Source of the DNA: Pararcticibacter amylolyticus
GTDB taxonomy: Bacteria > Bacteroidota > Bacteroidia > Sphingobacteriales > Sphingobacteriaceae
Direction of reading: 5' to 3'
Length of the DNA stretch: 54,669 nucleotides
Assembly (NCBI RefSeq): GCF_003130405.1
Contig: NZ_QEAS01000017.1
Span: 8,724-63,392 of the forward strand
This document shows, in pieces, positions 6,876-32,000 of this stretch. How positions within the stretch are numbered: position 1 is the stretch's first letter; each line of letters opens with the position of its first letter. A program made the position numbers and the translations under genes. The notes below the pieces were generated by a model. That model did no database searches, was not told the origin of the DNA, and saw only the letters and a list, made by a program, of their open reading frames with translations.

Positions 6876-7703
6876 ATGAAATCCTCTATTTTAAGCAATA
6901 TTACCAGGGATTTAAAACCTAATGATGAAATCATGCCGGCGTTATTTATTGGTCACGGTTCACCAATGAATGGTATTGAAGATAATGATTTCAGCCGCAA
7001 CTGGCACAAGCTGGGACAGGAGATTACCAAACCAGCTGCCGTTCTGGTGATATCCGCCCATTGGTTTACCAGGGGAACAAGAATCACAGCAATGGACTCG
7101 CCTCCTACTATTCACGACTTTGGAGGCTTTCCGCCTGAACTCTTCGCGGTACAATACCCGGCTCCCGGAGATCCTCAACTTGCTGCAGAAACTGCCCGCC
7201 TTGTACATTCGACAGAAATCGTGCAGGATCACGACTGGGGACTGGATCACGGTGCATGGACAATTGTACGGCATATGTATCCGGAAGCCAATATCCCTGT
7301 ATTGCAGATGAGTATTGATTTCACAAAGCCGCCTCAATATCACTATGACCTGGCTGCAGAACTGGCAGACTTAAGAAAAAAAGGCGTTCTGATTATGGGC
7401 AGTGGAAATATGGTGCATAACCTGAGGATGCTGTCGTGGGAAATGATAAATGGCGGAGGTTACGACTGGGCGGAAAGCATGAACGACAAATTTAAAGAAC
7501 TGATTACCTCTGGCAACCATAAAGAACTTATCGGATACGAGAAACTGGGAAGAGAAGCGTTGATGGCTATTCCTACTCCGGAGCACTATCTGCCACTTCT
7601 TTATATTCTCGGACTGAAAAAGAGCAATGACAAGGTATCTTTCTTCAATGACAAAGCTGTCGGAGGCTCCCTTACCATGACATCAGTTAAGTTCTCGCAA
7701 TAA
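6876..7703 (+). CDS. ygiD: 4,5-DOPA-extradiol-dioxygenase-like protein (YgiD/LigB family)
   Basis: The protein has 275 aa from the ATG at 6876; a second ATG at 6933 (MPALFIGHGSPMN) would also keep the whole domain and matches the usual family N-terminus. Metal-ligand and active-site signatures of class III extradiol dioxygenases are visible: the HGSP His, SAHWF, DHGAWTIVRHMYP, and GSGNMVHNLR. The fold opens catechol rings in an Fe(II) or Zn(II)-dependent way. The natural substrate in bacteria is not established; DOPA activity is known for E. coli YgiD. It appears monocistronic. Confidence 0.92.
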   Translation: MKSSILSNITRDLKPNDEIMPALFIGHGSPMNGIEDNDFSRNWHKLGQEITKPAAVLVISAHWFTRGTRITAMDSPPTIHDFGGFPPELFAVQYPAPGDPQLAAETARLVHSTEIVQDHDWGLDHGAWTIVRHMYPEANIPVLQMSIDFTKPPQYHYDLAAELADLRKKGVLIMGSGNMVHNLRMLSWEMINGGGYDWAESMNDKFKELITSGNHKELIGYEKLGREALMAIPTPEHYLPLLYILGLKKSNDKVSFFNDKAVGGSLTMTSVKFSQ

Positions 7704-7803
7704 AGGACTTCACAAATTACATTTTACATATTTTTTTCAACCTTTTCACATTCTTTTTGTATTTTAAGGCCAGAAAAGCAAAATCAACTTACTCAGTTTG
7801 ATC

Positions 7804-8463
7804 ATGTTCCGGCTAATAAACAAAAAAGAAGGGTTATTATTTACCGCAATTACCTTTGCTGCTACGCTGGGCAATCATTCGATTCCTTCAAACCTGCCGG
7901 ATCCCGGAAAAGACAGCGTATTTCACAGTTTTAACAGCGTTCGTCATATAGTTCATACACCCGCTTATTACGACAGAGAGTTCCTCGAAAAACTTAAATC
8001 TTTCAAAGAAAACATCAGAATAAAAGACAGTTGTATAGTTGCAGGGAAGGATACTGTATTGTTTCCGCGCACTCTCCAGGCTTTTAAAACGTATACTTTT
8101 ACTGCTGCTTCGGGAGAAAAGCAATACCGGCTCACCCTTAAAAGAAAAAACTATACCACGATTGTATTCAGTTTCCAGAGCGACCTACCAGGTAAAACAG
8201 GTCATACTGAGGCCGGAGAGGCAGTGCTCGATCCTTTTTTCTTTAACGGAACAAATGCATTCGATGATCTTGAGACCGGGGAAATTTTCCCCGCCTATGA
8301 ATACATCAGAAAGAATTCACAGCATTTTTTAAGTATACATTGCTGTGTAGATCCGGATGATGAGGGACGTTTAAGGGCTGTCGTTGCTTTTCATCCCAAT
8401 CCCTACCCGGTAAAAGAACGAACATCTCCGATCCTCAAGACCGCAAGCAAGACACAGTTGTAA
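7804..8463 (+). CDS. Hypothetical protein, possibly secreted
   Basis: I do not recognise a family. The ATG at 7804 gives 219 aa; a TTG two codons earlier is possible. The N-terminus (MFRLINKKEGLLFTAITFAA) is a basic stretch followed by a hydrophobic segment, compatible with an uncleaved anchor or weak signal peptide. The middle holds alternating beta-prone stretches (YRLTLKRKNYTTIVFSFQ) and a DPFFFNGTNAFDD segment. The C-terminus is Pro/Lys/Thr-rich. It sits between ygiD and the DMP19-like gene; the next gene has its own promoter, so no operon is implied. Confidence 0.6.
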   Translation: MFRLINKKEGLLFTAITFAATLGNHSIPSNLPDPGKDSVFHSFNSVRHIVHTPAYYDREFLEKLKSFKENIRIKDSCIVAGKDTVLFPRTLQAFKTYTFTAASGEKQYRLTLKRKNYTTIVFSFQSDLPGKTGHTEAGEAVLDPFFFNGTNAFDDLETGEIFPAYEYIRKNSQHFLSIHCCVDPDDEGRLRAVVAFHPNPYPVKERTSPILKTASKTQL

Positions 8464-8523
8464 GATCCTCACGGAAGGGGAGACCGGAACGCCGGAAAAA
8501 TTAAATCCCCAAAATATAAGCTG

Positions 8524-8553
8524 TTGACTTGTAATAAAAGATTCGTATATTGC
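8524..8553 (+). promoter_or_regulatory. Bacteroidota-type promoter of the DMP19-like gene
   Basis: TTG at 8524-8526, exactly 19 nt, then TATATTGC at 8546-8553, one base off TAnnTTTG. The start codon is 20 bases further on. Confidence 0.65.
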
Positions 8554-8572
8554 AAGCCCTTGATTATAAACC

Positions 8573-9187
8573 ATGAAGATGAACGGAGGTGTTTTAAAAT
8601 TACGGATCTTTTGTCTCTCTGCAATACTATTATTTCTGACAGGCTATGTATGCCGGGCTCAATTCCCTTCTGATTCATCGGTAATGGAAGGCGGGCTGGC
8701 GGGACAGGTACTCGCTTCGGCAAAAGAGCACAAGAACAGAACGATCTACACCACTTTAAGTCCGAAAATTATCGACGCTACGCCTGACAAAAATTTAAGC
8801 CAGGTGGTTACTGATTACGCAAGATCAAAAATGAACTGGAGCCTGAGCAACGAAATTGAAGTTCTGGCAAACGAGAGTGACATAGTGCGATCAGTTTATA
8901 TTATTTCGCAGATAGAAGCAGAAGTCAACACAGGAGGGTTTAAGCAGCTGTTTTCGGGAAGTGCATCTAAGCTCGGCGAATTAGGAGAGACCGCTTTCAG
9001 GGCCATAAACGCCCACTCGTTTGCTGAAGTTCTCAAAAAAGCTACCACTTTATATCACCAGGAAGGGCTGACCGACAAATTTAAAGACCTGGATGAGCAG
9101 TTCTACTCACTTTATGATAAAGAAGACCTGTGTAAGCTCAGGGTAAATTATATCAGAAAGAACAAAAAGGCCTTTAAAGCCAGCTAA
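8573..9187 (+). CDS. Secreted DMP19/DUF4375-like protein
   Basis: The protein has 204 aa with a clear signal peptide (LRIFCLSAILLFLTGYVCRAQ, cleavage near residue 29). The mature C-terminal two thirds resemble DMP19 (DUF4375): an IEAEVNTGGFKQLFSGSASKLGEL core matching the family's EVNNGGFxQYFFN motif, an AFRAINAHSFAEVLKKA helix, then DLDEQFYSL and a closing NYIRKNKKAF. Neisserial DMP19 was described as a DNA-mimic protein, but most homologues have no known function. A secreted version makes a DNA-mimic role unlikely here. Confidence 0.7.
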   Translation: MKMNGGVLKLRIFCLSAILLFLTGYVCRAQFPSDSSVMEGGLAGQVLASAKEHKNRTIYTTLSPKIIDATPDKNLSQVVTDYARSKMNWSLSNEIEVLANESDIVRSVYIISQIEAEVNTGGFKQLFSGSASKLGELGETAFRAINAHSFAEVLKKATTLYHQEGLTDKFKDLDEQFYSLYDKEDLCKLRVNYIRKNKKAFKAS

Positions 9188-9246
9188 GTTATTTAACATA
9201 TATTTCTACATTCGCAATCTCCCTGTTAATTTTCAAAAAGAGAGAT

Positions 9247-10182
9247 ATGCCTGCTTCCAAACACACTCATGCGCCTGCCCTGCTTGTAATACTGGCATTT
9301 GCCACTGTCTACATCGTATGGGGATCCACTTACTTTTTTATTCAAAAAGCGGTACATACTCTTCCTCCCTTTTTAATGGGAGCAATAAGGTTTATAACGG
9401 CCGGCATGATCTTGTTCGGCTGGTGTGCTTTAAAGAAGGAAAGACTCTTCAATCCACAACATATCAAAACAGCGGCAATAACAGGTATCCTCCTGCTTTT
9501 TATCGGCAATGGAGCGGTGATCTGGGTTGAACAATTTATGCCCAGCGCCATGGTTGCAATAATGGTTTCTTCTGCGCCCGTCTGGTTCGTTCTGCTGGAT
9601 AGGCCCAAATGGTCTGAAAATCTGAAAAGCACCAGCACTCTCTCCGGGCTGCTGGCTGGTTTTGCGGGCGTTATACTTCTTTTCTGGAATGAGATCAGCA
9701 GCTCCTTACATTCGGGCAATCAGCAACAGAAGCTTTCCGGTTTGTTGTTGCTCGTTATTGCATCAGCAGCCTGGTCGGGAGGCTCTTTATATTCGAAATA
9801 CAGATCAGAAGGCGGATCTTCAACTGTCAGTACATCCTGGCAGATGATAGCAGCCGGGCTTGCTTTTTTACCCTGCAGCATTTTCTCGGGAGAGTTGACG
9901 CATACAAGATGGGAAAGTGTTTCAACCGAAAGCTGGCTGTCTCTTTTATACCTGATATTAATGGGGTCCATCGCGGCATACACTGCTTATGTGTGGCTTT
10001 TACAGGTCAGGCCGGCTACACAAGTGAGTACTTATGCTTATGTCAATCCTGTCATTGCAGTCTTGTTAGGAGTGCTTTTTGCGAATGAAAAGGTATCGTG
10101 GGTACAGATTGCGGGGCTTGTTATTATCCTTGGAAGCGTGTTGATGATCAATTTAGCCAAGTACAGGAATAGCAGGAACTAA
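9247..10182 (+). CDS. EamA family (drug/metabolite transporter) permease
   Basis: The protein has 311 aa with ten predicted membrane helices in two EamA repeats (about 12-140 and 160-300). The N-terminal signature TVYIVWGSTYFFIQKAVHTLPPF and the C-terminal YAYVNPVIAVLLGVLFANEKVSW are typical of the YedA/RhaT-like exporter branch of the DMT superfamily in the inner membrane. The substrate cannot be deduced. It is a single-gene unit converging on the SPFH-Arc operon. Confidence 0.92.
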   Translation: MPASKHTHAPALLVILAFATVYIVWGSTYFFIQKAVHTLPPFLMGAIRFITAGMILFGWCALKKERLFNPQHIKTAAITGILLLFIGNGAVIWVEQFMPSAMVAIMVSSAPVWFVLLDRPKWSENLKSTSTLSGLLAGFAGVILLFWNEISSSLHSGNQQQKLSGLLLLVIASAAWSGGSLYSKYRSEGGSSTVSTSWQMIAAGLAFLPCSIFSGELTHTRWESVSTESWLSLLYLILMGSIAAYTAYVWLLQVRPATQVSTYAYVNPVIAVLLGVLFANEKVSWVQIAGLVIILGSVLMINLAKYRNSRN

Positions 10183-16918: not shown

Positions 16919-17902
16919 ATGTCGCAACTTTATCCCTTCAAATTCAGAACAATATTTAAAGACAAAATCTGGGGCGGAGAGAAAATCCGCACTTACCTGG
17001 GAAAAGATTATTCGCCACTTCCCAACTGTGGTGAAACCTGGGAGATCTCGGGCGTAAAATCAGATGTTTCAGTGGTTGAAAACGGACCTCTTGAAGGTCA
17101 AAGTCTTGCTCAACTACTCGAAGTACACAAGGAAGACCTGGTGGGAAAATCTGTATACCAAAGATTCGGAAATGAATTTCCTCTCCTGGTCAAATTCATT
17201 GATGCCAATGATGATCTTTCTATCCAGGTTCATCCTGACGACGAACTGGCCAGAAAACGCCATAATTCTTTCGGAAAAACTGAGATGTGGTATGTAATTG
17301 AAGCAGATCCGGGTGCTACACTTATTTCAGGCTTCAATCAGCCCGTTGATGAAAAAGTGTATCTTGAAAAGCTGAACAGCGGCAAACTTACCGATATCCT
17401 GAATAAGGAGAAAGTTGCATCCGGCGACGTCTTCTTTTTGCCTGCCGGCAGGGTGCATACCATCGGGAAAGGTCTGCTTATCGCAGAAATACAACAGACT
17501 TCAGACATTACTTATCGTATTTACGATTTCGACAGGGTGGATGATCAAGGAAATAAACGTGACCTTCATACAGAAGAAGCTCTTGCTGCTATCGATTATA
17601 AGTTCTACGATCAATATAAATCTTCTTACGACAAGAAGAAGAATGAACCTGTAGAAGTAGCAAAATGCCCCTACTTCACAACTAACATCCTGGATTTTAG
17701 CCAATCTGTTTCGAGAGACTACAGCTCCTTCGACTCATTTGTCATTCACGTCTGCGTGCAGGGATCTTATACCCTAAAGTATGACGGAGGGGATCTGAAT
17801 GTTCAAATGGGAGATTGTATTCTTCTTCCGGCGACCATCGGTAAAGCCGGCCTTGAAACGTCAACAGGATTTAAAATCCTGGAGAGCTACATACAGGAAT
17901 AA
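16919..17902 (+). CDS. manA: Mannose-6-phosphate isomerase, type I
   Basis: It interconverts mannose 6-phosphate and fructose 6-phosphate, linking mannose use and GDP-mannose synthesis to glycolysis. I chose the ATG at 16919 (MSQLYPFKFRTIFKDKIWGG), giving 327 aa, the short Bacillus-like type I form. Zinc ligands are visible: Q103 and H105 in IQVHPDD, E122 in KTEMWYV and H180 in GRVHTIG. The cupin barrel continues through AEIQQTSDITYRIYDFDR. It is monocistronic. Confidence 0.95.
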   Translation: MSQLYPFKFRTIFKDKIWGGEKIRTYLGKDYSPLPNCGETWEISGVKSDVSVVENGPLEGQSLAQLLEVHKEDLVGKSVYQRFGNEFPLLVKFIDANDDLSIQVHPDDELARKRHNSFGKTEMWYVIEADPGATLISGFNQPVDEKVYLEKLNSGKLTDILNKEKVASGDVFFLPAGRVHTIGKGLLIAEIQQTSDITYRIYDFDRVDDQGNKRDLHTEEALAAIDYKFYDQYKSSYDKKKNEPVEVAKCPYFTTNILDFSQSVSRDYSSFDSFVIHVCVQGSYTLKYDGGDLNVQMGDCILLPATIGKAGLETSTGFKILESYIQE

Positions 17903-18246
17903 GTTATAAGTAGTATTTATAAGTGGTAAGTTTTGGCACCCTCAACTTATTCTTATAACCGGTTTCACGAGTACTAGCCTGGCGGTAAGTTCAAATGTTC
18001 TGTCTTGCCATGGAGAATAAAACATTCATATAAGCGTATTTTGCTGTATTCACTAATAAGAGAATACTTCAAAATATGCTTTATTTGAAATACCTTCTTA
18101 TCAAAGTAAATCTGATAATTCACGAAAATCAGCTATTTACGTTCCGCCTTTAGTGCGGCGCGCCGGGCTTCCCTGCAAGTTTACACTTACCTGTCTGACA
18201 AATAGAATAAAATACCGAAATTTCCTGCCCTTTAAATTGAACGAAC
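17903..18246. other. Intergenic region with inverted repeats, no gene seen
   Basis: It begins with an AT-rich hairpin of the TTATAAG/TAAGTT type (arms 17917-17932 and 17944-17958). A 20-bp imperfect inverted repeat with three mismatches follows (18032-18051 and 18062-18081). TCAAAGTAAA at 18101-18110 recurs in inverted orientation at 20142-20151, just downstream of the receptor gene. A short GC-rich patch containing GGCGCGCC lies near 18158. No promoter consensus stands out. Confidence 0.5.
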
Positions 18247-20130
18247 TTGATAAACCGCTTAATATATTTTTTTTCAATCGTTATTCTCTCAGTAGCCACG
18301 CCAAGGGCACTTTATGCGCAGAAACCGGTTATATTAAATGATAAACTTGATCAGCACATATTCCAGTTTAATGAAATAGAAATATTTGAAGATCCGTCCG
18401 AAACCCTCACTCTTGCGCAGGTCAAGGAAAGACATTTTACCCCTAGCACTACAAGTACACCGCAGACCACCAACCTCCGTTCAGCATACTGGTTTAAGAT
18501 TAAGATCGATGGCAATAGTATGAAGGGGAACAGGCATTTTCTGCTTGAATTCTTTGACCAGACAATTGATGAGATAACAGTTTTTATTCCGGATAGATCA
18601 GGAAGATATACCTCAAAAGTGCTGGGAGATAATTACCGGTTTCAGCAAAGAGAAATTATTCACAAAAACTTCGAAATCCCTATTGAAAATTTAGAAGGAG
18701 AACAAACTTATTATTTTAAAATTAAGTCGTGGCAAAGAGCCGACATCATTATCGTTCTGAGGTCTGTTAACTGGTTCATTCATTATGCACTCGACGAGTA
18801 TTTCTCGTTCGGTATCTTTTATGGAATGATCCTCGTCTTCAGCTTCTATAATCTTCTCATGTTCTTTGCCATAAGGCAAAAGCAGTATTTGTATTACGTT
18901 CTCTATATCTTGAGTATAGGCCTGTATGAAATGTCTACAGATGGTATTGCTTACCAGTATCTATGGCCCGCCTTCCCTGAATGGAACCAATATGCTTTTG
19001 GTGTTGCCTTGTTCCTGGTGAGTACCTTCTCTCTCCTGTTTACAAAAGAACTGCTCTTTGTTAAAGCAAAGGCGCCATCTTTAAATAAGCTTTTAAATGT
19101 ACTGATCATTCTTGGGGCTATCTACTTCACCGCGGGCATGGTCATATACCGGCCCTTATTCAACTATAAATTTTTCGAGTTTATCCCGCTGTCGGCAGCA
19201 TTCTATACAGGCATTCATATCTGGAGAAATGGATATCGTCCGGCCCGCTTTTTTGTTCTTGGATACGGTTTCCTTTTCCTTGGTTTCTCACTGAAGCTTC
19301 TGATCCTTTTGAGTGACGGATCACTCAATATCGGCGTCTTAAGTTACTACAGCCTTAGCCTGTGCTTTATAATTGAGATGATCCTCCTCTCTTTTGCAAT
19401 TGGGGATAAGGTCAGGATCCTTAAACATAAAAAAGATAAAGCTCAGCGAAGGATCATTCTTCAGATGAAAGAGACGGAAAAGCTGAAAGACCGGGTTAAT
19501 AAAGAGCTGGAGACCCAGGTACAACATCGCACCCGGGAAGTTGTGGAGAAATCAGCGATCATTGAATCTCAGAACGAAGATCTCAAAGCCATGAATTTAA
19601 TGCTCAAAGAGCAGGCAGAAGAGATCTCGCGGATGAACGTACTGCTTGAACAGGACAATATTGAGCTGCAGACAAACATTGAGAAAGTCAGCAGGGCAAG
19701 GGTAATGTCGGCGGAAGTCGATTTTACAGAGTTCAGCAGGATATACCCTGATAATGAATCATGCTATAAATTTCTCTCCGAATTGAAATGGGAGAAAGGA
19801 TACACCTGTTCTAAATGCGGATCTGCAAATTATTTCAATGGTCATACACCATACAGCCGCAGATGCAGTAAATGCAGTTATGAAGAGTCGGTGACCACTA
19901 ATACCATTTTACATAATACAAGGATCCCGGTCAACAAAGCGTTTTATATGATCTTCCTGCTCTATTCTACAAAAGGAAAAATATCATCACATAAACTTTC
20001 GGAAATTCTCGGAATCAGGCAGAGTACTTGCTGGGCCTATAGCAGCAGGATAAAAAAGATCATGGATGAGCGAAAGAAAGAAATAAAAAATGCGGGGGAA
20101 AAAGGGTGGAGTAAACTAGTGCTCGAATAG
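18247..20130 (+). CDS. 7TM-DISM receptor fused to an IS1595-type zinc ribbon/HTH domain
   Basis: The protein has 627 aa from a TTG start; a stop lies three codons upstream and the signal peptide (ends LYAQ-KPV) begins at once. Order: 7TMR-DISMED2 extracellular domain about 30-165, seven membrane helices about 187-386, a coiled coil about 390-480, then a cytoplasmic tail. The tail matches the transposase zinc-ribbon of IS1595 elements: YKFLSELKWEKGYTCSKCGS with C521/C524, CSKC with C540/C543, then TTNTILHNTRIPVNKAFYMI and a helix-turn-helix (about 578-606, KLSEILGIRQSTCWAYSSRI). No DDE catalytic domain follows. SusC starts 332 bases downstream. I infer a membrane-tethered sugar-sensing transcription factor for the locus. 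Confidence 0.85.
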   Translation: MINRLIYFFSIVILSVATPRALYAQKPVILNDKLDQHIFQFNEIEIFEDPSETLTLAQVKERHFTPSTTSTPQTTNLRSAYWFKIKIDGNSMKGNRHFLLEFFDQTIDEITVFIPDRSGRYTSKVLGDNYRFQQREIIHKNFEIPIENLEGEQTYYFKIKSWQRADIIIVLRSVNWFIHYALDEYFSFGIFYGMILVFSFYNLLMFFAIRQKQYLYYVLYILSIGLYEMSTDGIAYQYLWPAFPEWNQYAFGVALFLVSTFSLLFTKELLFVKAKAPSLNKLLNVLIILGAIYFTAGMVIYRPLFNYKFFEFIPLSAAFYTGIHIWRNGYRPARFFVLGYGFLFLGFSLKLLILLSDGSLNIGVLSYYSLSLCFIIEMILLSFAIGDKVRILKHKKDKAQRRIILQMKETEKLKDRVNKELETQVQHRTREVVEKSAIIESQNEDLKAMNLMLKEQAEEISRMNVLLEQDNIELQTNIEKVSRARVMSAEVDFTEFSRIYPDNESCYKFLSELKWEKGYTCSKCGSANYFNGHTPYSRRCSKCSYEESVTTNTILHNTRIPVNKAFYMIFLLYSTKGKISSHKLSEILGIRQSTCWAYSSRIKKIMDERKKEIKNAGEKGWSKLVLE

Positions 20131-20462
20131 ATCCAGCCTGGTTTACTTTGAATAACTTTTCCTGACACTGGTAAAACTCCCGGTCTCTTATGCTTTTTCT
20201 TCTCTCCGGCACCAGGTAAAGAACCGTATCAGAATGCTTCATGATTAGGCTATTCAAAAGCCTCCGCTCCTTGATTATCAGGAGAAAGAGCGCACTGACA
20301 CAAAGGTACCGAAGCGTATCAAACAAAACACAATAGCCTAATAATCAGATATTTACTTCAAATATTTTTCCTGATTCACTTGGAATTATCACTTCAAAGC
20401 AGATAACTTTGCTCAACCAGTTATATCGGAGAGACCAGTTAAGTCATCTAATTATTGTTATT
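20131..20462. other. SusC leader region, no gene seen
   Basis: An 11-bp perfect inverted repeat (20244-20254, ATTAGGCTATT, with 20332-20342) encloses a 77-nt loop, and a nested small hairpin lies at about 20247-20263. TTTACTTTGA at 20142-20151 is the complement of a word upstream of the receptor gene. The region ends with a candidate SusC promoter. A short minus-strand open frame here (20060-20326) overlaps the receptor gene and has no family features. Confidence 0.5.
20380..20411 (+). promoter_or_regulatory. Candidate promoter of the SusCD genes
   Basis: TAACTTTG at 20404-20411 fits TAnnTTTG; TTG at 20380-20382 lies 21 nt upstream, slightly longer than the usual 19. The SusC start is 51 bases downstream. 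Confidence 0.5.
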
Positions 20463-23450
20463 ATGAAAAAAAGACTATTACTTTTTATTTCTTTCATTCT
20501 GTTAGGATGCACAGCATCACTGGCACAGAATATAACCGTCCGGGGGACGGTTAAGGATCAGAAAGGAGAATCCCTTCCCGGAGTATCCCTGAAGGTTAAA
20601 GGATCCACCCAGGGGACGTCAACGGGAGTTAACGGAGACTATACAATAAATGTCCCGGGCAACGGGATTCTTGTTGTGTCCTATGTAGGTTTCAAAACTA
20701 TGGAGGTTCCCGTAAACAACCGTACGACTATCAATTTAACACTTAGCGAATCCAACCAGCAATTGGATGAAGTTGTAGTGGTAGGATATGGTACGCAACG
20801 AAGAGGGGATGTTACCACGGCCATATCTTCTGTCAGCACTAAAGACATAGAAGAACGGCCTATCGTACAAGCGGCACAGGCTTTACAGGGAAAAGCAGCT
20901 GGGGTGCAGGTGTCGCAACCCTCAGGAAAACCGGGACAAGGGCTTTCGATAAGGGTCAGGGGAGCCACATCTATCCAGGCTGGAAATGAACCTTTGTACG
21001 TGATCGACGGGGTACCTACTATGGACAGCCGCGATTTAAATGTCAATGATATTGCCAGTATTCAGGTCCTGAAGGATGCCTCCTCTGCCGCCATCTACGG
21101 TGCAAGAGCAGCTAACGGGGTGGTGATCATTACCACGAAAAGAGGTAAAGCGAATGTATCAAACATCAACTTCAGTGCCTACTACGGAACCTCAGAACTG
21201 GCAAAGAATATTGAAGTATTAAATGCTGACCAATATAAAACTCTGTTAACGGAACTCGACCCTACATCAGTACAGAATCTTTCGTCGTCTGAAGTAACAG
21301 ACTGGACCAAAGAGGTGTTCGGTACCGGTCACAATCAGAACTATCAGTTGTCATTTCAGGGAGGGACAGACAAAAGCCAATATTTTGTCTCAGGCGCTAT
21401 TACGAAAGATGAGGGAATTGTTAAGCCCGCAAGGTATAACCGCTACTCATTCAGAGCTAACCTTGATAATCAGGTGAAAGACTGGTTTAAAATCACATCC
21501 AATATCAGTTATTCGAATGCCAACATCAGGGATGTAAAAGATAATGACAACGCCGGCAGAAATGCTGTCGTACTTGGTGCTCTTGGTACTCCTCCTAATA
21601 TCGGAATCTACACCACTGATGATAAAGGCAGGACAATATACACTCAGAACCCTAACAAAAGCGGCTGGGATAATCCTTTAGCAGCCATCTATGGCCCGAC
21701 ACAAGGAACTTTAGACAACAGAATTTTTGGGAATGTGACAGGAGAGTTGTCTCTGTTAAAAGATTTGAAGCTCAAATCCAACTTTGGTATTGACTATTTT
21801 AATCATAAATGGGACTACTATTTAGATCCGGTTATGACAACCGAAGGGAGGAACGATGGGAACCATGGCCTGGCAAGGTCGGATAAATCGAATAATTTCA
21901 CCTACCTGTGGGAAAATACATTGAATTATGAGAAGAAATGGGATAAACACTCGCTGTCGGCTTTAGGGGGGATCACCATTCAGAAAAACAAATACAATCA
22001 GTCGTATATCGAGGGTAAAGACTTCCCGGACGACAATACCGTCAAAACGATTAATGCGGCTAATATTATCTCTAACGCCTACACAAACGAAAGCGCCTGG
22101 TTCTTAAATTCCTACCTGGCGAGAGTAATGTACAACTTTGACAGCCGCTATCTTGTAACAGTGAACTTTCGTGCAGACGGTTCTTCTAAACTTGATAAAA
22201 ACAATCAATGGGGCTACTTCCCTTCCGTATCTGCGGGATGGAGAATTTCCTCAGAACCATTCTTTAAAGTTAAAGCTATTAACGATTTAAAATTAAGGTT
22301 AGGCTGGGGGCAAAACGGGAATGTTGAAGGACTGAGCAACTATGCATCTCTGGGACTTAATACATTTACGCGCCACTCTTATGAATCAGGCGAAAAATAC
22401 AGGGGGCCGAACATCAATCCGCCCACAAAAATGCCAAATCCCGATCTGAAATGGGAAACTTCGACTCAGTCAAACATCGGGATCGATGTTGCTTTCTTAA
22501 ATTCAAGACTGACGTTTACGGCAGATGCTTATATCAAGAAAACCAAAGATCTGATACTTACGGTGGCACTTCCTGATGCGAGCAGCTACCGGGATGGAAT
22601 TGACAGAAATTCAGGGAAGCTTGAAAATAAGGGATTGGAATTCCTGATCTCCTCTGTAAATATCGACCGTCCGGGTTTTAAATGGAATACCGATGTCAAC
22701 TTTTCTCTTAACAGAAATAAGATTACAGAACTTCAGTTGCAGGGACTTTACCGCTACGCTGCTGTTGAGGGAAGAGACTATATAATCGCTTTGGAAAAAG
22801 GAGTTTCTCTAGGTTCATTTTACGGCTATGTCGCAGAAGGAGTTAATCCTGAAACTGGAAACATGGATTTTAAGGATCTCAATAACGACGGATCAATCAC
22901 GCCAGGAGACCGTACTTATATTGGCTCTGCGCAACCAAAGTTCATTTATGGTTTAAATAATGATTTAACTTACAAAAACTGGAATTTTTCCTTCCTGTTC
23001 CAGGGATCGCAGGGAAATAAGATCTTCAACGCTTCCAGAATCGAAACCGAAGGTATGTATGATACCAAAAACCAGTCGACAGAAGTGTTAAGAAGATGGA
23101 CAGAAAATAACCGGAATACTGATATTCCGAAAGCAGACTTCGGACAGGTGTCTAACTCCAGGGTTTCTTCAAGATTTGTGGAGAATGGATCTTTCTTAAG
23201 AATGAAAAGTGCGACACTGTCTTATAATTTTGAAAAATCACTCATCAACAGGCTGAAGATGAATAAGCTTACTGTCTACTTCACTGCTCAAAACCTGTTT
23301 ACAATTACCAATTATAAAGGGTTTGATCCTGAGCTCAATGCTTTTGCCAGCAGCAATGACAACCGTCCGACAGGCACTACTTTGGGTATAGACTATGGAA
23401 CTTATCCTTCTGCAAGGACATTTATTTTAGGCGTAAATGTTACATTATAA
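20463..23450 (+). CDS. SusC/RagA family TonB-dependent outer-membrane transporter
   Basis: The ATG at 20463 starts a clean signal peptide (MKKRLLLFISFILLGCTASLAQ) and gives 995 aa, normal for the family. An N-terminal carboxypeptidase-D-like domain (about 25-95: VRGTVKDQKGESLPGVSLKVKG) is followed by the TonB box region DEVVVVGYGTQRRGDVTTAIS and a plug domain with IRVRGATSIQAGNEPLYVIDGVP and DASSAAIYGARAANGVVIITTK. The rest is a 22-strand barrel ending in a beta strand (SARTFILGVNVTL). It imports oligosaccharides into the periplasm with its SusD partner, which follows 11 bases later. There is no N-terminal secretin-like domain, so anti-sigma signalling by this receptor is not expected. Confidence 0.96.
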   Translation: MKKRLLLFISFILLGCTASLAQNITVRGTVKDQKGESLPGVSLKVKGSTQGTSTGVNGDYTINVPGNGILVVSYVGFKTMEVPVNNRTTINLTLSESNQQLDEVVVVGYGTQRRGDVTTAISSVSTKDIEERPIVQAAQALQGKAAGVQVSQPSGKPGQGLSIRVRGATSIQAGNEPLYVIDGVPTMDSRDLNVNDIASIQVLKDASSAAIYGARAANGVVIITTKRGKANVSNINFSAYYGTSELAKNIEVLNADQYKTLLTELDPTSVQNLSSSEVTDWTKEVFGTGHNQNYQLSFQGGTDKSQYFVSGAITKDEGIVKPARYNRYSFRANLDNQVKDWFKITSNISYSNANIRDVKDNDNAGRNAVVLGALGTPPNIGIYTTDDKGRTIYTQNPNKSGWDNPLAAIYGPTQGTLDNRIFGNVTGELSLLKDLKLKSNFGIDYFNHKWDYYLDPVMTTEGRNDGNHGLARSDKSNNFTYLWENTLNYEKKWDKHSLSALGGITIQKNKYNQSYIEGKDFPDDNTVKTINAANIISNAYTNESAWFLNSYLARVMYNFDSRYLVTVNFRADGSSKLDKNNQWGYFPSVSAGWRISSEPFFKVKAINDLKLRLGWGQNGNVEGLSNYASLGLNTFTRHSYESGEKYRGPNINPPTKMPNPDLKWETSTQSNIGIDVAFLNSRLTFTADAYIKKTKDLILTVALPDASSYRDGIDRNSGKLENKGLEFLISSVNIDRPGFKWNTDVNFSLNRNKITELQLQGLYRYAAVEGRDYIIALEKGVSLGSFYGYVAEGVNPETGNMDFKDLNNDGSITPGDRTYIGSAQPKFIYGLNNDLTYKNWNFSFLFQGSQGNKIFNASRIETEGMYDTKNQSTEVLRRWTENNRNTDIPKADFGQVSNSRVSSRFVENGSFLRMKSATLSYNFEKSLINRLKMNKLTVYFTAQNLFTITNYKGFDPELNAFASSNDNRPTGTTLGIDYGTYPSARTFILGVNVTL

Positions 23451-23461
23451 TTAGAACGACC

Positions 23462-24946
23462 ATGAAAAAGCTTTTATATATTACTAAGATTGGTGTCGCC
23501 GCTCTTGCTGTTGTATGCTCCTCCTGCGAGAAACAGCTTGACCAACTTCCTTTATCCAACACTATCGTTGCAAACGATGGAAAAGGAACGGCGGGCTCTT
23601 CCATTACAGATGCAGCCAAAGCTGAGGCGGCAATTTCTGCCTGTTACGGAGTATTCAGGAATTCAGCGGCAACCTACTATGTGATGGATTACTTCCTCGT
23701 TGGAGACGGGCAATCCGATAATTCCTATGCAGGTGCCGACAACCCCTCCTGGTTCGAAGTTGATGAATTCAGAATGCAATCGACCAATGAGAGAGCTTCT
23801 ATCAACTGGGGATTTCTTTACAATCATATATCTACAGCCAACTCCATCATTGCAAATGTTCCTAAGATCACGGATGCTGCGCTAACAGCAACAAGAAAAA
23901 GTCAGATCGTTGGCGAGGCTAAATTTATGCGGGCAAGAGCCTATTTTGATCTCATCAGGATTTATGGAGACGTTCCTTTAGTGGTTGATGAGCTCCCTAC
24001 TATTACACCTGATAACCTTGAGGAGATCTATCCGCAATTATATCCCAGGAGAACGCCGGTATCTGAAGTATACACCCAGATTATCAAAGACCTGAACGAA
24101 GCTGCTACGACAGTTCCCGCAAACGGCCCTAATAAGATGACGGTTACTCCCGGCGTGGTTTACACTCTACTGGCAAAAGTTTATGCCACGCAAAAACCTG
24201 TAAACTGGTCATTGGTAAAGGAAAACTGTGATAAAGTGATTGCATTAGGTTACAGCCTGGTTCCTTCGTTCGAAAGCCTCTGGGATGGAGCCCACGAAAA
24301 TTCCAGTGAGGCGATCTTCGAACTGAACTTTGACGGATGGGAAACAGGTGGAAACTGGGGATCTGACATGTTTTATGGAACGGGATGGAAAAAATTTAAC
24401 ACTCCTTCAAATGATCTTGTCAAAGCCTATGATGATGAAGGCGATGCTGTTAGAAAAGCATCGACCATTCATTTCATGGATGTTACAGGCAAGTGGAATG
24501 ACAAATACTGGAGTAACTCTTATGCCCGTTTCCCGTTTGCAGCCAAAATGAGAAATACTTCAGGCTCTCAAAATATCATCATGTACAGACTGGCAGATGT
24601 TCTTTTACTGAAGGCGGAAGCTCTGAATGAGTCAGGCGATACAGAAGGAGCTAGAGCGCTGGTTAATCAAATCAGGCAGAGAGTAAGCCTGGGTCCTACT
24701 CCGGCTACAAACCAAAGCTCAATGCGGTTAGCAATTGAAAAGGAACGGAGACTGGAGCTGGCTTTTGAAGGCCACAGATGGTTTGATCTGGTCAGGACAG
24801 ACAGAGCTATTCCTGTAATGAAGGCCGTAAAAGACGGTGCAGGAAATAACCTGAACTACCCTATTTCTGAAAACAAGCTTTTATGGCCGGTTCCCCAGTC
24901 GGAAATGGACAAAAACTCACAGCTTACGCAAAACACAGGTTATTAA
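23462..24946 (+). CDS. SusD/RagB family glycan-binding lipoprotein
   Basis: The protein has 494 aa. The lipoprotein signal peptide ends at Cys22 (AVVCSSCEKQLDQLP), and mature SusD lids sit on the SusC barrel at the cell surface. Family marks are the early LDQLPLS segment, the TPR-like helices with GEAKFMRARAYFDLIRIYGDVPLV near 155-178, and the C-terminal RLADVLLLKAEALNESG and ELAFEGHRWFDLVRTDRA blocks. It is co-transcribed with SusC. A hairpin follows before the glycosidase genes. Confidence 0.96.
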   Translation: MKKLLYITKIGVAALAVVCSSCEKQLDQLPLSNTIVANDGKGTAGSSITDAAKAEAAISACYGVFRNSAATYYVMDYFLVGDGQSDNSYAGADNPSWFEVDEFRMQSTNERASINWGFLYNHISTANSIIANVPKITDAALTATRKSQIVGEAKFMRARAYFDLIRIYGDVPLVVDELPTITPDNLEEIYPQLYPRRTPVSEVYTQIIKDLNEAATTVPANGPNKMTVTPGVVYTLLAKVYATQKPVNWSLVKENCDKVIALGYSLVPSFESLWDGAHENSSEAIFELNFDGWETGGNWGSDMFYGTGWKKFNTPSNDLVKAYDDEGDAVRKASTIHFMDVTGKWNDKYWSNSYARFPFAAKMRNTSGSQNIIMYRLADVLLLKAEALNESGDTEGARALVNQIRQRVSLGPTPATNQSSMRLAIEKERRLELAFEGHRWFDLVRTDRAIPVMKAVKDGAGNNLNYPISENKLLWPVPQSEMDKNSQLTQNTGY

Positions 24947-25032: not shown

Positions 25033-26475
25033 ATGAAAACTCCATCTTTGTCTATTCTCCTGGCTTTCCTCTATGTCCTCTTCGTTTTCTCTTCCTGCAG
25101 TAAAAAAACAGTCCAGGATAAGCTTAATCAAGTTAACAATGGAGATGGAGAAGTGTCCGTCTGGCTCACTACTTCGGACCAGTCCAGTCTTTTTAAAAAT
25201 CAAAACAACCGGCTTTCATTTAAAGGAGCACCGGGCGGCTCTTCTGTTTCTATTCTCGTGGATGACTCAAAATCTTTCCAGTCTATGGATGGGTTTGGTT
25301 ATTGTTTAACCGGCGGGAGTGCCATGCATATCTACAAGATGGAAAAGAGTGCACGGCAGGCTTTGCTGAAAGAGCTTTTTACGACGGATGCCAACAACAT
25401 CGGTATTTCTTATCTGAGAGTGAGCATAGGCGCTTCAGATCTTGATGAGAAACCCTTCTCATACAACGATCTTCCCCCGGGGGAAACGGATCCTGAATTG
25501 AAAAAATTCAGCCTTGATCCCGACAGAAAGTACCTCATTCCTCTTTTAAAGGAAATTATTTCTCTCTACCCGGATATAAAAATTCTCGGATCTCCCTGGT
25601 CTCCTCCCACCTGGATGAAGACCAACAATCAATCGAAGGGGGGCAGCCTGAAGCCCGAATGGTATGACGCTTATGCAAGATACTTCGTAAAATACATTCA
25701 GGGGATGAAGGCAGAAGGCATTCGTATTGATGCGATTACTGTTCAGAATGAGCCTCTGCATCCGGGCAACAACCCAAGCCTGCTGATGGTAGCAGACGCA
25801 CAGGCCGATTTCGTTAAAAATCACCTCGGACCGGTGTTCAAAGAAGCAGGGATCGACACTAAAATAATAATCTACGATCATAATGCTGACAGGCCCGACT
25901 ACCCTATTTCCATTCTCGATGACCCTGACGCCAGGAAATATATTGACGGATCGGCATTTCATTTATATGCCGGCAAGATCGACGCCCTGTCGGATGTCCA
26001 CAACGCTCACCCCGATAAGAATCTGTACTTCACCGAGCAGTGGATCGGAGCGCCGGGCAACTTCCCGGAAGACCTGAAATGGCATGTCCGCGAGTTAATA
26101 ATCGGGGCTACGCGAAACTGGTGCAAAACTGTACTTGAATGGAACCTGGCTGCCGACCCTCAGCAAAGACCCTATACTGATGGTGGTTGCAATGAATGCC
26201 TCGGAGCGCTGACAATTGACGGGAACAATGTAAAACGCAATCCTGCCTACTACATCATTGCACACGCCTCGAAATTTATAAGGCCTGGCTCCTTACGTAT
26301 CGAATCGTCTGTTTCAGCCGATCTGCCCAATGTAGCTTTCAAAACTCCGTCTGGCCAAATTGTCCTCATTGTGGTGAATAACAGCAGGGAAGCAAGATCT
26401 TTTAATATTGGTTTTAAGGGCAAGTTCACTTCAGCGTCGTTAAATAGCGGTTCGGTAGCCACTTTTGTATGGTAA
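25033..26475 (+). CDS. Glycoside hydrolase family 30 lipoprotein (glucanase/glucosylceramidase type)
   Basis: The protein has 480 aa with a lipoprotein signal (FVFSSC, Cys22), so it is probably exposed at the cell surface or in the periplasm. GH30 features are QSMDGFGYCLTGGSA near residue 80, the acid/base E240 in ITVQNEPLHPGNN and the nucleophile E335 in LYFTEQWIG, then WNLAADPQQRPYTDGGC and a C-terminal beta domain (NVAFKTPSGQIVLIVVNN). Members of this part of GH30 include beta-1,6-glucanases and beta-glucosidases. With SusCD and GH3 alongside, beta-1,6-glucan is a reasonable guess for the substrate, but it is not proven by sequence. Confidence 0.92.
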   Translation: MKTPSLSILLAFLYVLFVFSSCSKKTVQDKLNQVNNGDGEVSVWLTTSDQSSLFKNQNNRLSFKGAPGGSSVSILVDDSKSFQSMDGFGYCLTGGSAMHIYKMEKSARQALLKELFTTDANNIGISYLRVSIGASDLDEKPFSYNDLPPGETDPELKKFSLDPDRKYLIPLLKEIISLYPDIKILGSPWSPPTWMKTNNQSKGGSLKPEWYDAYARYFVKYIQGMKAEGIRIDAITVQNEPLHPGNNPSLLMVADAQADFVKNHLGPVFKEAGIDTKIIIYDHNADRPDYPISILDDPDARKYIDGSAFHLYAGKIDALSDVHNAHPDKNLYFTEQWIGAPGNFPEDLKWHVRELIIGATRNWCKTVLEWNLAADPQQRPYTDGGCNECLGALTIDGNNVKRNPAYYIIAHASKFIRPGSLRIESSVSADLPNVAFKTPSGQIVLIVVNNSREARSFNIGFKGKFTSASLNSGSVATFVW

Positions 26476-26573: not shown

Positions 26574-28814
26574 ATGATCCAAAAAACCATTCTTGTTATT
26601 CTTGCCATTATGGCATTATCCCAATCCGGGTATTCGCAAAAAAAAGCGGCTACGGAAGCGGAGATTAATCAAAAGGTGGAAGCCCTGCTTCAAAAAATGA
26701 CTCTTGAAGAAAAAATCGGCCAATTGAACCAGTACACGGGTGACTGGGAAGTGACGGGCCCCGTTACGAATTCAGGCAATAAAGTGGAAGATGTAAGGCA
26801 GGGCAAGATTGGTTCGATGCTTAATGTGAGAGGAGTTAAGCATACACGAGCCCTCCAGGAAGCAGCTATGCAGTCGCGGCTTAAGATTCCCCTGCTGTTC
26901 GGACAGGATGTCATCCACGGCTATCGTGTTACATTTCCCATTCCACTGGCAGAGGCTGCAAGCTGGGACCTCGATATCATTGAAAAATCGGCAAGAATTG
27001 CAGCCACAGAAGCTTCTGCATCCGGCATTCACTGGACTTTCGCCCCTATGGTTGATGTAGCGCGTGATCCGCGCTGGGGGCGTGTAATGGAAGGTGCAGG
27101 TGAGGATACTTATCTGGGCTGCCTTATTGCAAAAGCAAGAGTGAAAGGCTTTCAGGGTAAAGGCTTAGGCAATCTGGATGCAGTTATGGCCTGTGCAAAG
27201 CACTTTGCTGCTTACGGAGCGGCAATAGGCGGAAGGGACTACAATAGCGTTGATATGGGATTGCGTACGCTGTGGGAAGTATATCTTCCTCCATTCAAGG
27301 CTGCTGTAGATGCAGGTGCAGCAACCTTCATGAACTCTTTTAATGATATAAACGGCATTCCGGCAACAGGGAACAGCTATATTCAGCGCGATATCCTGAA
27401 GGGTAAATGGGGGTTTAAAGGCTTTGTAGTCAGTGACTGGGGCTCCATAGGCGAAATGATTCAGCATGGTTATGTAAAAGATAACTATGAAGCGGCAGAA
27501 GCTGCGATAAAAGCAGGGAGTGACATGGATATGGAGAGCAGAAGCTATATTAACAACCTTTCAAAGCTTGTAAAGGAAGGAAAGGTAAAAGAAGATCTTA
27601 TAAATGACGCTGTGAAGAGGATCCTTTATAAGAAATTTGAACTTGGCTTGTTTGATAATCCTTACCGCTTCAGTGATGAAAAACGCGAACGGCAGACTCT
27701 TAACAAACCGGAGTTCCTGGATGCGGCAAGAGATGTGGCAAGAAAAAGTATTGTGCTTCTCAAGAACGAAAATCAACTGTTACCTCTTTCTAAAGAACTC
27801 AAATCCGTTGCTCTTATTGGGCCACTGGTAAAGTCTGAAAAGGATATGCAGGGCTTCTGGTCTATTGACTGGGGAAAAGAAGACCACCTGATTTCCCTTT
27901 TCGAAGGGATGAAAAACCAGGCAGGGAAAACCAGGCTTCTTTATGCAAAAGGATGTGAGATAAGTGACACATCCCGTGCGGGTTTTACAGAAGCTCTTAA
28001 GGCTGCCAGTGAAGCTGAAGTGGTGGTGATGGCAATGGGCGAAAAGTATGACATGAGTGGTGAAGCTAAGAGCCGTGCGAATATTCATCTGCCGGGTGTA
28101 CAGGAAGAGTTGATCAGGGCCATACAGGCAACAGGAAAACCAGTCGTTGTATTACTTATGGCCGGAAGACCACTTGTGTTTAACTGGACAGCGGATCATG
28201 TACCCGCTATCGTTTATACGTGGTGGCTGGGAAGTCAGGCTGGAAACGCGATAGCAGATGTGTTATATGGCAACTACAATCCATCGGGAAAGCTGCCGAT
28301 GACGTTCCCCCGCTCTGAAGGACAAATTCCCATTTATTATAACTACTTCAACACTGGCAGGCCCGCTCAAAATGATCAGGATACGCATTATCGTTCCGGC
28401 TATATTGATATGCAAAAGAGTCCCCGCTTTGCATTCGGATATGGGCTGAGCTATACGACCTTTGAATATGGAGATCTTAAGCTCAGCGCTGATAAGATGA
28501 CCGGCAATGAAAAGATATCGGTATCCTTTACCCTGCGAAATACGGGCAAGACAGCTGGCGAAGAAGTGGCACAACTTTATTTGCGTGATATGGTTGCACA
28601 GCCAGTGCGTCCGGTTAAAGAATTAAAGGCCTTTCAGAAAGTACTGCTTAAACCGGGAGAAAGCAAAACAATCACATTCACAATCGATAAAGAGAAGCTT
28701 TCGTTTTACAACGACAACCTTGAATGGATAACCCAACCGGGCGAGTTCAAAATAATGATCGGAGGATCATCAGACGGTACAAAGCTGGAGCAAAGCTTTA
28801 GTTTAGTAGATTAA
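26574..28814 (+). CDS. bglX: Glycoside hydrolase family 3 beta-glucosidase
   Basis: The protein has 746 aa with a signal peptide (ends SGYSQ-KKA), so it is periplasmic. An N-terminal TIM barrel carries KHFAAYGAAIGGRDYN and the nucleophile D288 in GFVVSDWGS. The (alpha/beta)6 domain has the likely acid/base region around MAMGEKYDMSGEAKSRANIHLP. A C-terminal fibronectin-III-like domain (SVSFTLRNTGKTAGEEVAQLYL) closes the chain. It would hydrolyse imported gluco-oligosaccharides to glucose, the last step of the locus. It follows GH30 after 98 bases and ends in a strong terminator. Confidence 0.95.
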   Translation: MIQKTILVILAIMALSQSGYSQKKAATEAEINQKVEALLQKMTLEEKIGQLNQYTGDWEVTGPVTNSGNKVEDVRQGKIGSMLNVRGVKHTRALQEAAMQSRLKIPLLFGQDVIHGYRVTFPIPLAEAASWDLDIIEKSARIAATEASASGIHWTFAPMVDVARDPRWGRVMEGAGEDTYLGCLIAKARVKGFQGKGLGNLDAVMACAKHFAAYGAAIGGRDYNSVDMGLRTLWEVYLPPFKAAVDAGAATFMNSFNDINGIPATGNSYIQRDILKGKWGFKGFVVSDWGSIGEMIQHGYVKDNYEAAEAAIKAGSDMDMESRSYINNLSKLVKEGKVKEDLINDAVKRILYKKFELGLFDNPYRFSDEKRERQTLNKPEFLDAARDVARKSIVLLKNENQLLPLSKELKSVALIGPLVKSEKDMQGFWSIDWGKEDHLISLFEGMKNQAGKTRLLYAKGCEISDTSRAGFTEALKAASEAEVVVMAMGEKYDMSGEAKSRANIHLPGVQEELIRAIQATGKPVVVLLMAGRPLVFNWTADHVPAIVYTWWLGSQAGNAIADVLYGNYNPSGKLPMTFPRSEGQIPIYYNYFNTGRPAQNDQDTHYRSGYIDMQKSPRFAFGYGLSYTTFEYGDLKLSADKMTGNEKISVSFTLRNTGKTAGEEVAQLYLRDMVAQPVRPVKELKAFQKVLLKPGESKTITFTIDKEKLSFYNDNLEWITQPGEFKIMIGGSSDGTKLEQSFSLVD

Positions 28815-29057: not shown

Positions 29058-32000
29058 TTGAGAAGATTCGGTACCCTCACTTTAAAAATTATTCTTTGGA
29101 TCATCGGCATCATTATTTTTCTGGTGCTTCTGGTATTTATTCTGATACGAGTTCCGGCTGTTCAAAACTGGGCACGCACGAAAGCGGTCAGCTACCTGGA
29201 AGGTAAGATTGGCACAAAGGTTGAAATTAACCGCATCAGCCTGGACCTTCCGAAACTGATCGTACTGGAAGATATCTATTTTGAAGATCAGAAAAAGGAC
29301 ACTTTACTTGCGGGGGACACCCTTAAAGTAGATGTGAGCCTCTTGAAATTACTTGACAACAAACTGGAGATTAACGAGATCGACCTTCGAGGCATCACCG
29401 CTAATGTACAACGTAATGCCGACAGCGTTTTTAATTTCGATTACATCATTAAAGCGTTTGCAGGAGAACAGAAGAAAGAGCCTAAGCCTGAGGATACTAC
29501 TTCTACGATGAAGTTCTCTATCGACAAAATTAATCTCGACCGGATCAGGATCAGTTATGCTGATGCGCCTTCCGCTAATGACGTCCGCTTTTATCTGGGT
29601 CATTTTGATACACGTATAAAGGAATTCGACCTGGATAGCATGAGATTTAATGTCCCTAAAATCACGCTTGCCAATGTCAATGCAAGGGTAGTTCAGGGAA
29701 AGCCAGCAGCAGAGTCCAAGCCGATGGCTCAGCATGAAGCGGAAAGCAGTGAGCCTCTTGGCATTGATTTCAGTTTCGGCGTCCTTGATCTTTCTAAAAT
29801 CAAAGTCTATTATCAGAATGACGTTTCGGCGATGAAGGCTGATGTCGATCTCGGAAAACTACAGGTTGAATCAGATAAACTGGATTTAAAGAAACAGCAT
29901 ATCAGCCTGGAAAACCTTGATCTCACAAACTCAAATATTCTGTTCCAGCTGGGCAGGAAACAACAGGCAAAAGTAGTTACCCAGGAAGCGAAAAAAGCAG
30001 CAGAGGCTACCGCTAACAACTGGAAATTTACCGTTACCGACATCAACCTAGAGAACAATAACATTCGCTTTGATGATTTTAATATGCCGGTACTGAAACG
30101 GGGAATGGACTTTTCTCACCTCAGCATAAACAGTCTTAGTTTGAATGCTGAAGACCTGGTTTATGCGCTTGATACCATATCAGGGAAGATAAACTCCGGA
30201 AGTTTCAGGGAAAAAAGCGGCTTTGATCTGAGGAAATTTGAAACCGAGTTTTTCTATGGCGCAAAAGAAGCTTATCTGAAAGACCTGGATATTCAAACTC
30301 CCGTAACAAGGATCCGCGATAATATCAGAGTGACTTATCCTTCCATCGCCAGCATTTCTTCAAATCTTGGAGAACTGGGCATAGAAGCCAATTTAAAAGA
30401 GACAAAGATTGGCTTCAGAGATATTCTCACACTTGCTCCGGCCATGGCAAATACAGTGCCGTTGAAAGGCAACACGAATGCTGTACTCAATATAAATGGC
30501 AGGATTAGGGGAAAAGTTAAAAGCCTTGAGATCCCTAATCTTGAAATATCAGGACTGGGCGCTACCAGGATTAAAGCATCTGCCAAAACAAGAGGCCTTC
30601 CTGATATGAACGAAACCTGGCTCGATGTAAAGATAGATGAATTCAGTACAAGACGCTCTGATATTCTGGCTCTTGTTCCGCGCGGAACGATCCCTTCTAA
30701 CATCAGCATCCCGGAAGCAATCCGGCTGCAGGGATATTTCAAAGGAAGCATGTCAAACTTCAGTACTGACCTTAATGCGAATACGAGCTATGGTAGTTTA
30801 CGAGCCATCGCTTCCTATGATGCTAGAATTAAGGGCAAGGAAAAGTACAAAGCCAATATAAGAGCATTTAACCTCAACGCAGGCAAGTTTATCAAAAATG
30901 ACAGTATAGGCCGTATCACTCTCGCTGCTAATGTTGTCGGAGAGGGTATTGATCCTAAAACAATGAGAGCACGGGCAGTTGCGAAGCTCATCAAAGCGGA
31001 GTATAATGGCTATGCTTACCGGAATCTTACAGTCGACGGCACAGCAGGACGCGGCACTATCAGCGCAAAAGCAAACATGAGCGATCCGAATATTGACTTT
31101 GATCTCATTGCAAATGCAGACATGAGGAAGAAATATCCGTCAGTAAAGCTTGATTTGAACGTCGACAGCATTGATATGGGGAAACTAAATCTAATGAAGG
31201 ATGACCTGCGTTTCCATGGCAAGCTGTCAGCAGATCTTCCTACTGCCGATCCCGATTATCTGAACGGAAGTGTTGTATTGAGCAACGCATTGATTGCAAG
31301 GAACGGCGAGAGATTTACACTTGACACCGTCAGTATCGTGTCGACGGCGAATGCAGACAGCAGTACATTGAAACTGCGATCCGAAATTATGTCGGCTAAC
31401 CTGAGAGGCAAATATAAACTCACACAGATTGGCTCTGCTATGCAGGATCTGATAAGCAAGTACTTTTCAACCGGCCCTAAAGCACAACCGGCGAAATACG
31501 AACCGCAAAATTTCACGTTCAATGCAAGAGTGGTAAATACTCCCATCTTTGAAAAATTTGCACCCGATCTGAAGGAGCTTGCGACGATTGTACTTTCAGG
31601 GAGTTTCGATAGCAGAGCCGGCACCCTTAATGTAAATGGTTCCGTCCCGCGCATCCTTTACGGATCGAATGACATCAACAATCTGCAAATAAAAATCAAT
31701 ACAACTGACAGTGCCCTGGCGTACGCCTTTACTGTCGACCGGCTCAACGTAAGCCAGTTTCAGTTATTCGCTGCAAGAATTGCCGGAGATGTTAAGAATA
31801 ATACACTAAGCACTGATATTAGCACCCGGGATAAAAACAACAAGCAAAATTACCGTATCGCCGGAGCATTAAAAGCTTTGCAGGATGCATATCAGCTAAG
31901 TCTTAATCCGAATGGACTGATGTTGAATTACACTGACTGGAATGTCAGCCAGGACAATGCAATTCAGTTTGGAGGAAAAGGAATCCAGGCTACCAATTTC

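Follow-up and report, generated by a model that had tools for sequence, protein, structure and literature searches.

The regulator gene and its neighbours

The window, by which we mean the whole 54 669-nucleotide stretch of DNA that was analysed, contains at 18247–20130 on the forward strand a single open frame that begins with TTG and encodes a protein of 627 aa. This protein comprises an N-terminal helix, a DISMED2 sensor domain (18373–18759, residues 43–171; Pfam 7TMR-DISMED2, E 5.8e-29), a 7TM domain (18796–19410, residues 184–388; Pfam 7TMR-DISM_7TM, PF07695, 4.1e-44), a helical linker resembling an S-helix coiled coil (19411–19710, about residues 389–488), an IS1595-type zinc ribbon (19747–19881, residues 501–545) and a helix–turn–helix (HTH) region (19915–20088, residues 557–614). 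The ribbon, which here lies at the C-terminus of a longer protein, was matched by Zn_ribbon_IS1595 (PF12760; 1.8e-6, 28.2 bits against a cut-off of 25.4), and all three Pfam domains scored above their cut-offs. The HTH region aligned with profile positions 1–59 of 215 in the NCBIfam IS1595 transposase model; the score, 30.6 bits, falls short of the cut-off of 75 set for this model. A sequence-only reading of this DNA had described the same order of sensor, seven helices, coiled coil, zinc ribbon and HTH in one protein, and had expected the tail to match transposase zinc ribbons significantly; Pfam, NCBIfam and AlphaFold agree with the description, and the ribbon match is significant.

The four cysteines assigned to the ribbon in that reading, C521, C524, C540 and C543, were unchanged across 57 aligned sequences (window included), as were many HTH residues and the pair R428/T429 of the S-helix-like linker (consensus ERT, HRT in the window). 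The absence of the DDE catalytic domain, which it had also claimed, was borne out, as Pfam found no PF12762 match in the window protein and the genome's sole match lies on another contig, C2. The same Pfam scan found no histidine kinase and no receiver domain, and the sensor, the membrane part and a DNA-binding domain (its role assigned by homology) are thus carried in one chain free of phosphorelay domains. PADLOC gave no defence-gene match. The protein is very likely to be a DNA-binding regulator, and we refer to it below as the regulator.

An AlphaFold model of the full protein, based on the 57-sequence alignment, had a mean pLDDT of 80.5 and a pTM of 0.62. The predicted order is an N-terminal helix (residues 2–16), a domain rich in beta structure, seven helices of membrane type, one long helix reaching residue 488, in which confidence was low at 445–480, and a tail made of ribbon strands (529–548) and three helices (562–574, 581–588 and 592–614). 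The tail modelled alone reached 82.0 (pLDDT) and 0.73 (pTM). The top two PDB matches of the full model in Foldseek were RetS periplasmic domains (3jyb and 2xbz). The tail model found no PDB fold with E up to 0.001 (262 matches at E up to 10), and the first of these weak matches (E >0.001) were zinc-ribbon-like ribosomal proteins and Lrp- and MarR-type regulators. No sequence relative of the window regulator was found in the PDB up to an E value of 1.

Downstream of the regulator and on the same strand lie susC (20463–23450, from a probable ATG start; automatic start 20409), susD (23462–24946, by Pfam), a GH30 gene (25033–26475), for which the best NCBIfam model was endo-1,6-beta-glucanase (418 bits, below the cut-off of 700), and a GH3 gene (26574–28814) of the beta-glucosidase BglX type, above that model's cut-off. 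Pfam and NCBIfam thereby support the earlier placement of the regulator before SusC, SusD, GH30 and GH3 genes. Further along, 29058–36417 encodes a TamB-like protein of 1682 aa and, next to it with an 8-base overlap of the frames, a 772-aa member of the Omp85 superfamily. The window genome contains at least 56 SusC genes, an estimated 1 % or so of its genes if these number some 5,300.

This neighbourhood was examined among relatives in loci over 9 kb, which, after the removal of six repeats, left 101 regulators (100 of the DISM type and one propeller protein). SusC, SusD, GH30 or GH3 lay within six ORFs of 96 of the 101 regulators, as assigned with profiles built from the window's own genes; the exceptions were L051, L063, L184, L185 and L186. 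The sequence-only reading had anticipated a link of homologues to susC. The link to carbohydrate loci proved strong and reaches beyond SusCD, the next same-strand ORF being SusC in 41 and GH30 in 20 of the 101. At L184 (11501–16903), a GH81-type protein with a CHU_C domain is encoded directly upstream of the regulator, and no SusC gene is near the regulator in that family.

The set of SusCD, GH30 and GH3 resembles the Bacteroides locus bt3309–bt3314, where SusCD is joined by GH30_3 and GH3 and the substrate is fungal 1,6-beta-glucan, as given in the available part of PMC5481569. By this analogy, the window enzymes point to fungal 1,6-beta-glucan as the likely substrate. The regulators differ between the two loci, as that of Bacteroides is predicted to be of the SusR type (BT3309; same part of PMC5481569), whereas a 7TM-DISM protein with a transposase-type tail occupies the place here.

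Origin and spread of the transposase-type tail

Over 120 aa, the window tail shares 40 % identity with the beginning of a longer IS1595-type transposase-like frame from the same family, which, as judged by eye, runs on into a DDE-type region. Phylogenetic inference was carried out on 92 tails (55 from regulators, one from the propeller protein and 36 labelled transposase), thinned from 168 distinct sequences. The 55 regulator tails and the propeller tail formed one clade among the IS1595 transposases (support 100/94), in a tree of few columns with a midpoint root and many inner forks left open. One sequence labelled as a transposase, L244, fell inside this clade; its frame is 172 aa, and we take it to be a regulator cut by the end of the locus. 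Based upon these sequence comparisons, the tail was almost certainly captured from an IS1595 transposase and, as all 56 tails lie in one clade inside these transposases, the capture was apparently old and single.

Occurrence of the regulator was surveyed at several levels. In a first search, 45 of 60 relatives matched, mostly through the sensor. A profile of the tail found some match in 131 of the 301 genomes of the window's family, and 110 of the 301 carry the regulator, that is, a match within a frame whose length ranges from 622 to 1101 aa. When the remaining 21 tail-matching genomes were searched again, no frame exceeded 366 aa, a size typical of transposases or fragments; one of the 21, the incomplete genome G179, shows the end of a tail together with a match of the sensor type and could carry a regulator. 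At the level of the class, 91 of 395 genomes matched the tail search and, among the matches listed, frames as long as a regulator occur in 12 genomes from four other families; the other listed matches outside the home family lie in much shorter frames, such as those of transposases or fragments. Relatives were encoded in 403 of 409 candidate stretches from GTDB contigs, and the best 80 of the 403 were retained to give 79 loci, mainly from Mucilaginibacter and Pedobacter, and also from Chitinophaga and others. Because the architecture is so widespread among genomes, a recent chance insertion in one genome only, raised earlier as an alternative, is ruled out. Between 17900 and 20470 there are three inverted pairs of at least 14 nt, none of which flanks the gene or its tail as terminal inverted repeats would.

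An older insertion could still have left the tail as a fossil, having replaced an ancestral output and since lost its DNA binding, with the receptor working in some other way. Such a history would suit a relative with a LuxR-type output that is known at a SusC–GH30 locus. We consider it highly improbable, since none of the 57 sequences departs from the zinc ligands or from many of the HTH residues, the tail is more conserved than the protein as a whole (mean column identity 74 % over 17 tails and 59 % over 16 full proteins) and one clade of tails has been retained across several families.

A candidate operator ahead of susC

Our study identified a candidate operator, GGTANNNAASCGTATCA, which usually occurs as a pair of direct repeats 77–79 or 86–92 bp apart ahead of the target gene. 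In the window, a motif scan placed site 1 (GGTAAAGAACCGTATCA) at 20215–20231 and site 2 (GGTACCGAAGCGTATCA) at 20305–20321, 90 bp from site 1, both on the forward strand. Between them, a palindrome, CTCCTTGATTATCAGGAG, occupies 20267–20284, and a TGATNATCA element at this place recurs in many relatives; past site 2, the alignment of relatives revealed a conserved extension (CTAATWATCAG..TTA) at 20337–20355. These are followed, before susC, by a promoter-like TTG N21 TAACTTTG at 20380–20411, which we take to resemble the Bacteroidota promoter consensus. Two binding stretches had been proposed in the sequence-only reading, 17900–18250 and 20130–20460; the candidate sites (20215–20321) fall inside the second, and none was found in the first. 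Among the regulators as a set, only 3 of 101 have a pair in the 400 bp that precede their own gene, indicating that direct autoregulation is not general. A 14-nt inverted repeat (20241–20254 and 20332–20345, 93 % complementary) was also seen around the palindrome and the second site.

The same arrangement was found in 23 aligned regulator-to-susC regions, which contain two GGTANNNAAGCGTATCA copies about 90 bp apart with TGATNATCA between them and, past the second copy, CTAATTATCAG and TTACA, then a TTG...TANNTTTG promoter-like pair. Within the 6.3-Mb window genome, the two window sites were the sole exact matches to the motif; up to two mismatches, there were 85 matches compared to 44 for a reversed control. 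Sites in intergenic regions were called with at most 3 of 14 positions off and GTAT kept. By this rule, of the 61 regions that separate a regulator from a neighbouring SusC or GH30 gene, 55 held at least one site and 49 held at least two, whereas the reversed motif gave one site in two of the same regions and two sites in none. Pairs at 76–95 bp occurred in 68 of 87 loci of the two main families (19 were without a pair), compared to two loci with a pair at 96–115 bp, four at 56–75 bp and none with the core reversed. The spacing of 78 pairs was 77–79 bp in 9, 86–92 bp in 68 and 94 bp in one; a wider histogram, in which three loci were counted twice, also displayed gaps between the clusters. On this comparative evidence, we consider it likely that the GGTANNNAASCGTATCA motif is the operator of the regulator.

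Other explanations for the conserved region were rejected. No Rfam family reached its gathering score between 17500 and 20700, and a structured RNA around the sites was discarded on this basis. A reverse-strand ORF spanning the operator region (20060–20326) was judged spurious. Inverted ends were detected for several related IS1595 elements, and an origin of the operator in transposon ends was examined by scoring 20 of them with the operator matrix; 20 of 500 shuffles reached the best score, uncorrected for the 20 tests made, and the operator motif is unlike the ends of these elements.

The placement of the sites also bears on the direction of control. The protein might be a membrane-tethered repressor, its two sites blocking or looping the promoter until sugar is sensed, and sites eight to nine helical turns apart, with spacings clustered at 77–79 and 86–92 bp, would suit looping. 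However, site 2 in the window ends 58 bp upstream of the −33-like TTG, and an operator upstream of the promoter is more usual for activators. We therefore regard repression as unlikely and favour activation from these sites.

Association of the motif with the regulator

Across the 301 genomes of the window's family, an exact pair was found in 67 of the 110 with the regulator and in 14 of the 191 without it, and 11 genomes together had 15 matches to the reversed pattern. The pattern allowed start-to-start spacings of 82–100 bp only and is blind to pairs at 77–79 bp, which qualifies the 43 regulator genomes that lack an exact pair. Shared descent inflates all of these counts, and tests on them treat genomes as independent, which is untrue. 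Of 99 pairs in the family, 63 had a regulator no more than 15 kb away (for 50 of them, at 149–1336 bp from the tail and on its strand) and 17 were in genomes without one. The other 19 were distant from any regulator, in genomes that carry it: 11 are outside ORFs and directly before carbohydrate genes, namely SusC (1), GH30 (4), GH3 (1), GH18 (2), PL14 (2) and an alginate-lyase-family gene (1), six are inside ORFs and two are in repeats without a carbohydrate gene next to them. GH5, GH16 and GH81 genes also neighbour regulators; taken with the GH18 and PL14 genes that follow distant sites, they suggest a wider range of targets in fungal walls or glucans. A second locus in the window's genome (L031) has an operator pair at 4209/4297 before a GH5-CBM6 gene, followed by two tandem regulators (4209–10140), and a further pair at 19463/19553, its first core with one mismatch, before a SusC gene (19463–20000).

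In another family, f36, the regulator occurs in 10 of 244 genomes. The scan used the same cores with a wider gap allowed, and at least three of the ten regulators were already among the earlier loci. A pair lay within 180 bp past the tail in nine of the ten, the tenth genome having a pair elsewhere, and pairs were present somewhere in 10 of 10 regulator genomes compared to 15 of 234 others. In total, 28 pairs in 25 genomes were found against 13 matches for the reversed pattern, so the excess consists mainly of the nine adjacent pairs.

Individual exchanges of domains were also seen. One relative, 46 % identical over the sensor part, has a GerE/LuxR HTH (22.4 bits, cut-off 23.5) in place of the tail; it lies before SusCD and GH30 genes and, in this one case, no site was found in its intergenic region. 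Searching with this protein, all others among the matches listed, down to 1.5e-93, have regulator-length frames. Conversely, the propeller protein, encoded on the reverse strand of L037 (16108–19380; 1090 aa), joins Reg_prop/Y_Y_Y domains to the same transposase-derived tail (zinc ribbon 24.6 bits, cut-off 25.4), and Pfam found no kinase or receiver in it. In the tree, its tail groups with those of DISM regulators, including one encoded in the same genome, in an eight-member clade (support 96/95). Pairs at 78–79 bp lie before and after this gene, the later one with one mismatch per core, and a DISM regulator about 5 kb away could use those sites. From its sequence, this one case would extend the tail to a second sensor class.

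More distant relatives gave a varied picture. A family with a diverged tail (f12) showed a changed core, of the AARYGYAA type, whose repeats in three loci are spaced 67, 77 and 67 bp; another (f49) had an AAGYGTATA site soon past the regulator in 3 of 3 loci, one with a second copy elsewhere; both patterns were picked after viewing the sequences. Across 11 loci in three families further removed, the pair in its present form did not occur. Spacings of 67, 77–79 and 86–92 bp step by about one helical turn. As sequence comparisons, the swap and distant-family cases are few but agree.

It could be argued that the regulator is real but that the motif is the operator of a different, co-inherited factor, the tail acting by protein contacts or binding elsewhere. 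The tie between motif and tail is comparative, 43 of 110 regulator genomes lack the exact pair and the palindrome between the sites may belong to another factor. Against this, the pair tracks the regulator in two families, is absent in the one LuxR-HTH swap and present in the one case of the tail on another sensor, and the diverged tail of f12 comes with a changed core, albeit by a post hoc pattern. We regard a separate factor as quite improbable and retain the motif as the probable site bound by the tail.

Proposed mechanism and relation to known systems

Taken together, this evidence suggests a membrane-tethered one-component transcription regulator of fungal-glucan genes acting via GGTANNNAASCGTATCA repeats, a reading to which we assign, as a whole, a probability of about 0.78. 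The DISMED2 domain, presumably outside the cytoplasm, would sense a glucan-derived sugar or a partner protein. To judge from fold and signature, the 7TM bundle and the S-helix-like coiled coil may carry the signal inward and hold a dimer, and the linker with its unchanged RT pair could act as a switch (after the available part of PMC1592074). On comparative evidence, the presumably dimeric zinc ribbon and HTH, without the DDE nuclease, would bind the direct repeats upstream of the target promoter. From the positions of the sites, the bound regulator would most likely activate susCD–GH30–GH3 and other fungal-wall carbohydrate genes; the fuller proposal, an activator answering to beta-1,6-glucan products, has in our view an even chance of being correct.

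The sensor and 7TM domains are shared with 7TMR-DISM receptors with DISMED2, such as RetS, but the output of the window protein is a transposase-derived zinc ribbon and HTH. These are homologous to those of IS1595-family transposases, from which the regulator differs in having no DDE domain, no flanking ends that could be found and a retained place at carbohydrate loci. Hybrid two-component systems contain Reg_prop/Y_Y_Y domains, which one relative joins to the same tail, yet Pfam finds no kinase or receiver in that relative or in the window protein. Proteins with the ChiS-family DNA-binding domain likewise fuse a DNA-binding domain to sensor parts, and a figure legend in PMC8092284 includes 7TMR-DISM among their architectures; their HTH is a different variant from the window tail, and the available part of that paper mentions no transposase origin. 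A 7TMR-DISM diguanylate cyclase appears in the available part of PMC5342196. Our literature search, with subscription journals mostly outside its range, found no description of an output of the transposase type on a 7TM-DISM protein.

New transcription factors that arose from captured transposases are known chiefly in eukaryotes. The present case would be bacterial; it apparently arose once, has left many descendants and comes with a binding site that can be predicted. It seems rather probable that one ancient capture founded a transcription-factor family with its own direct-repeat operator, and that the module spread in Bacteroidota, with operator and tail changing together, was transferred to another class of sensor and came, in some genomes, to serve a scattered regulon of fungal-wall enzymes. 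Regulators of Bacteroidota polysaccharide loci include SusR, hybrid two-component systems and sigma/anti-sigma pairs; the family would add a class to these and would allow regulons to be predicted in Mucilaginibacter, Pedobacter and related soil bacteria.

Matches were also found in 239 plasmid records. Four regulator-like ones were examined, from Flammeovirga, Persicobacter (two) and Aureibacter. All four have DISMED2 and 7TM domains and three have a PF12760 match, one of these below the cut-off; the motif was not seen downstream of the gene in any of the four. Their annotation reads only '7TM diverse intracellular signaling domain-containing protein'. The Flammeovirga plasmid-borne relative lies upstream of ribokinase and sugar transporter genes (L345, 6576–12577), which suggests other sugars in other families.
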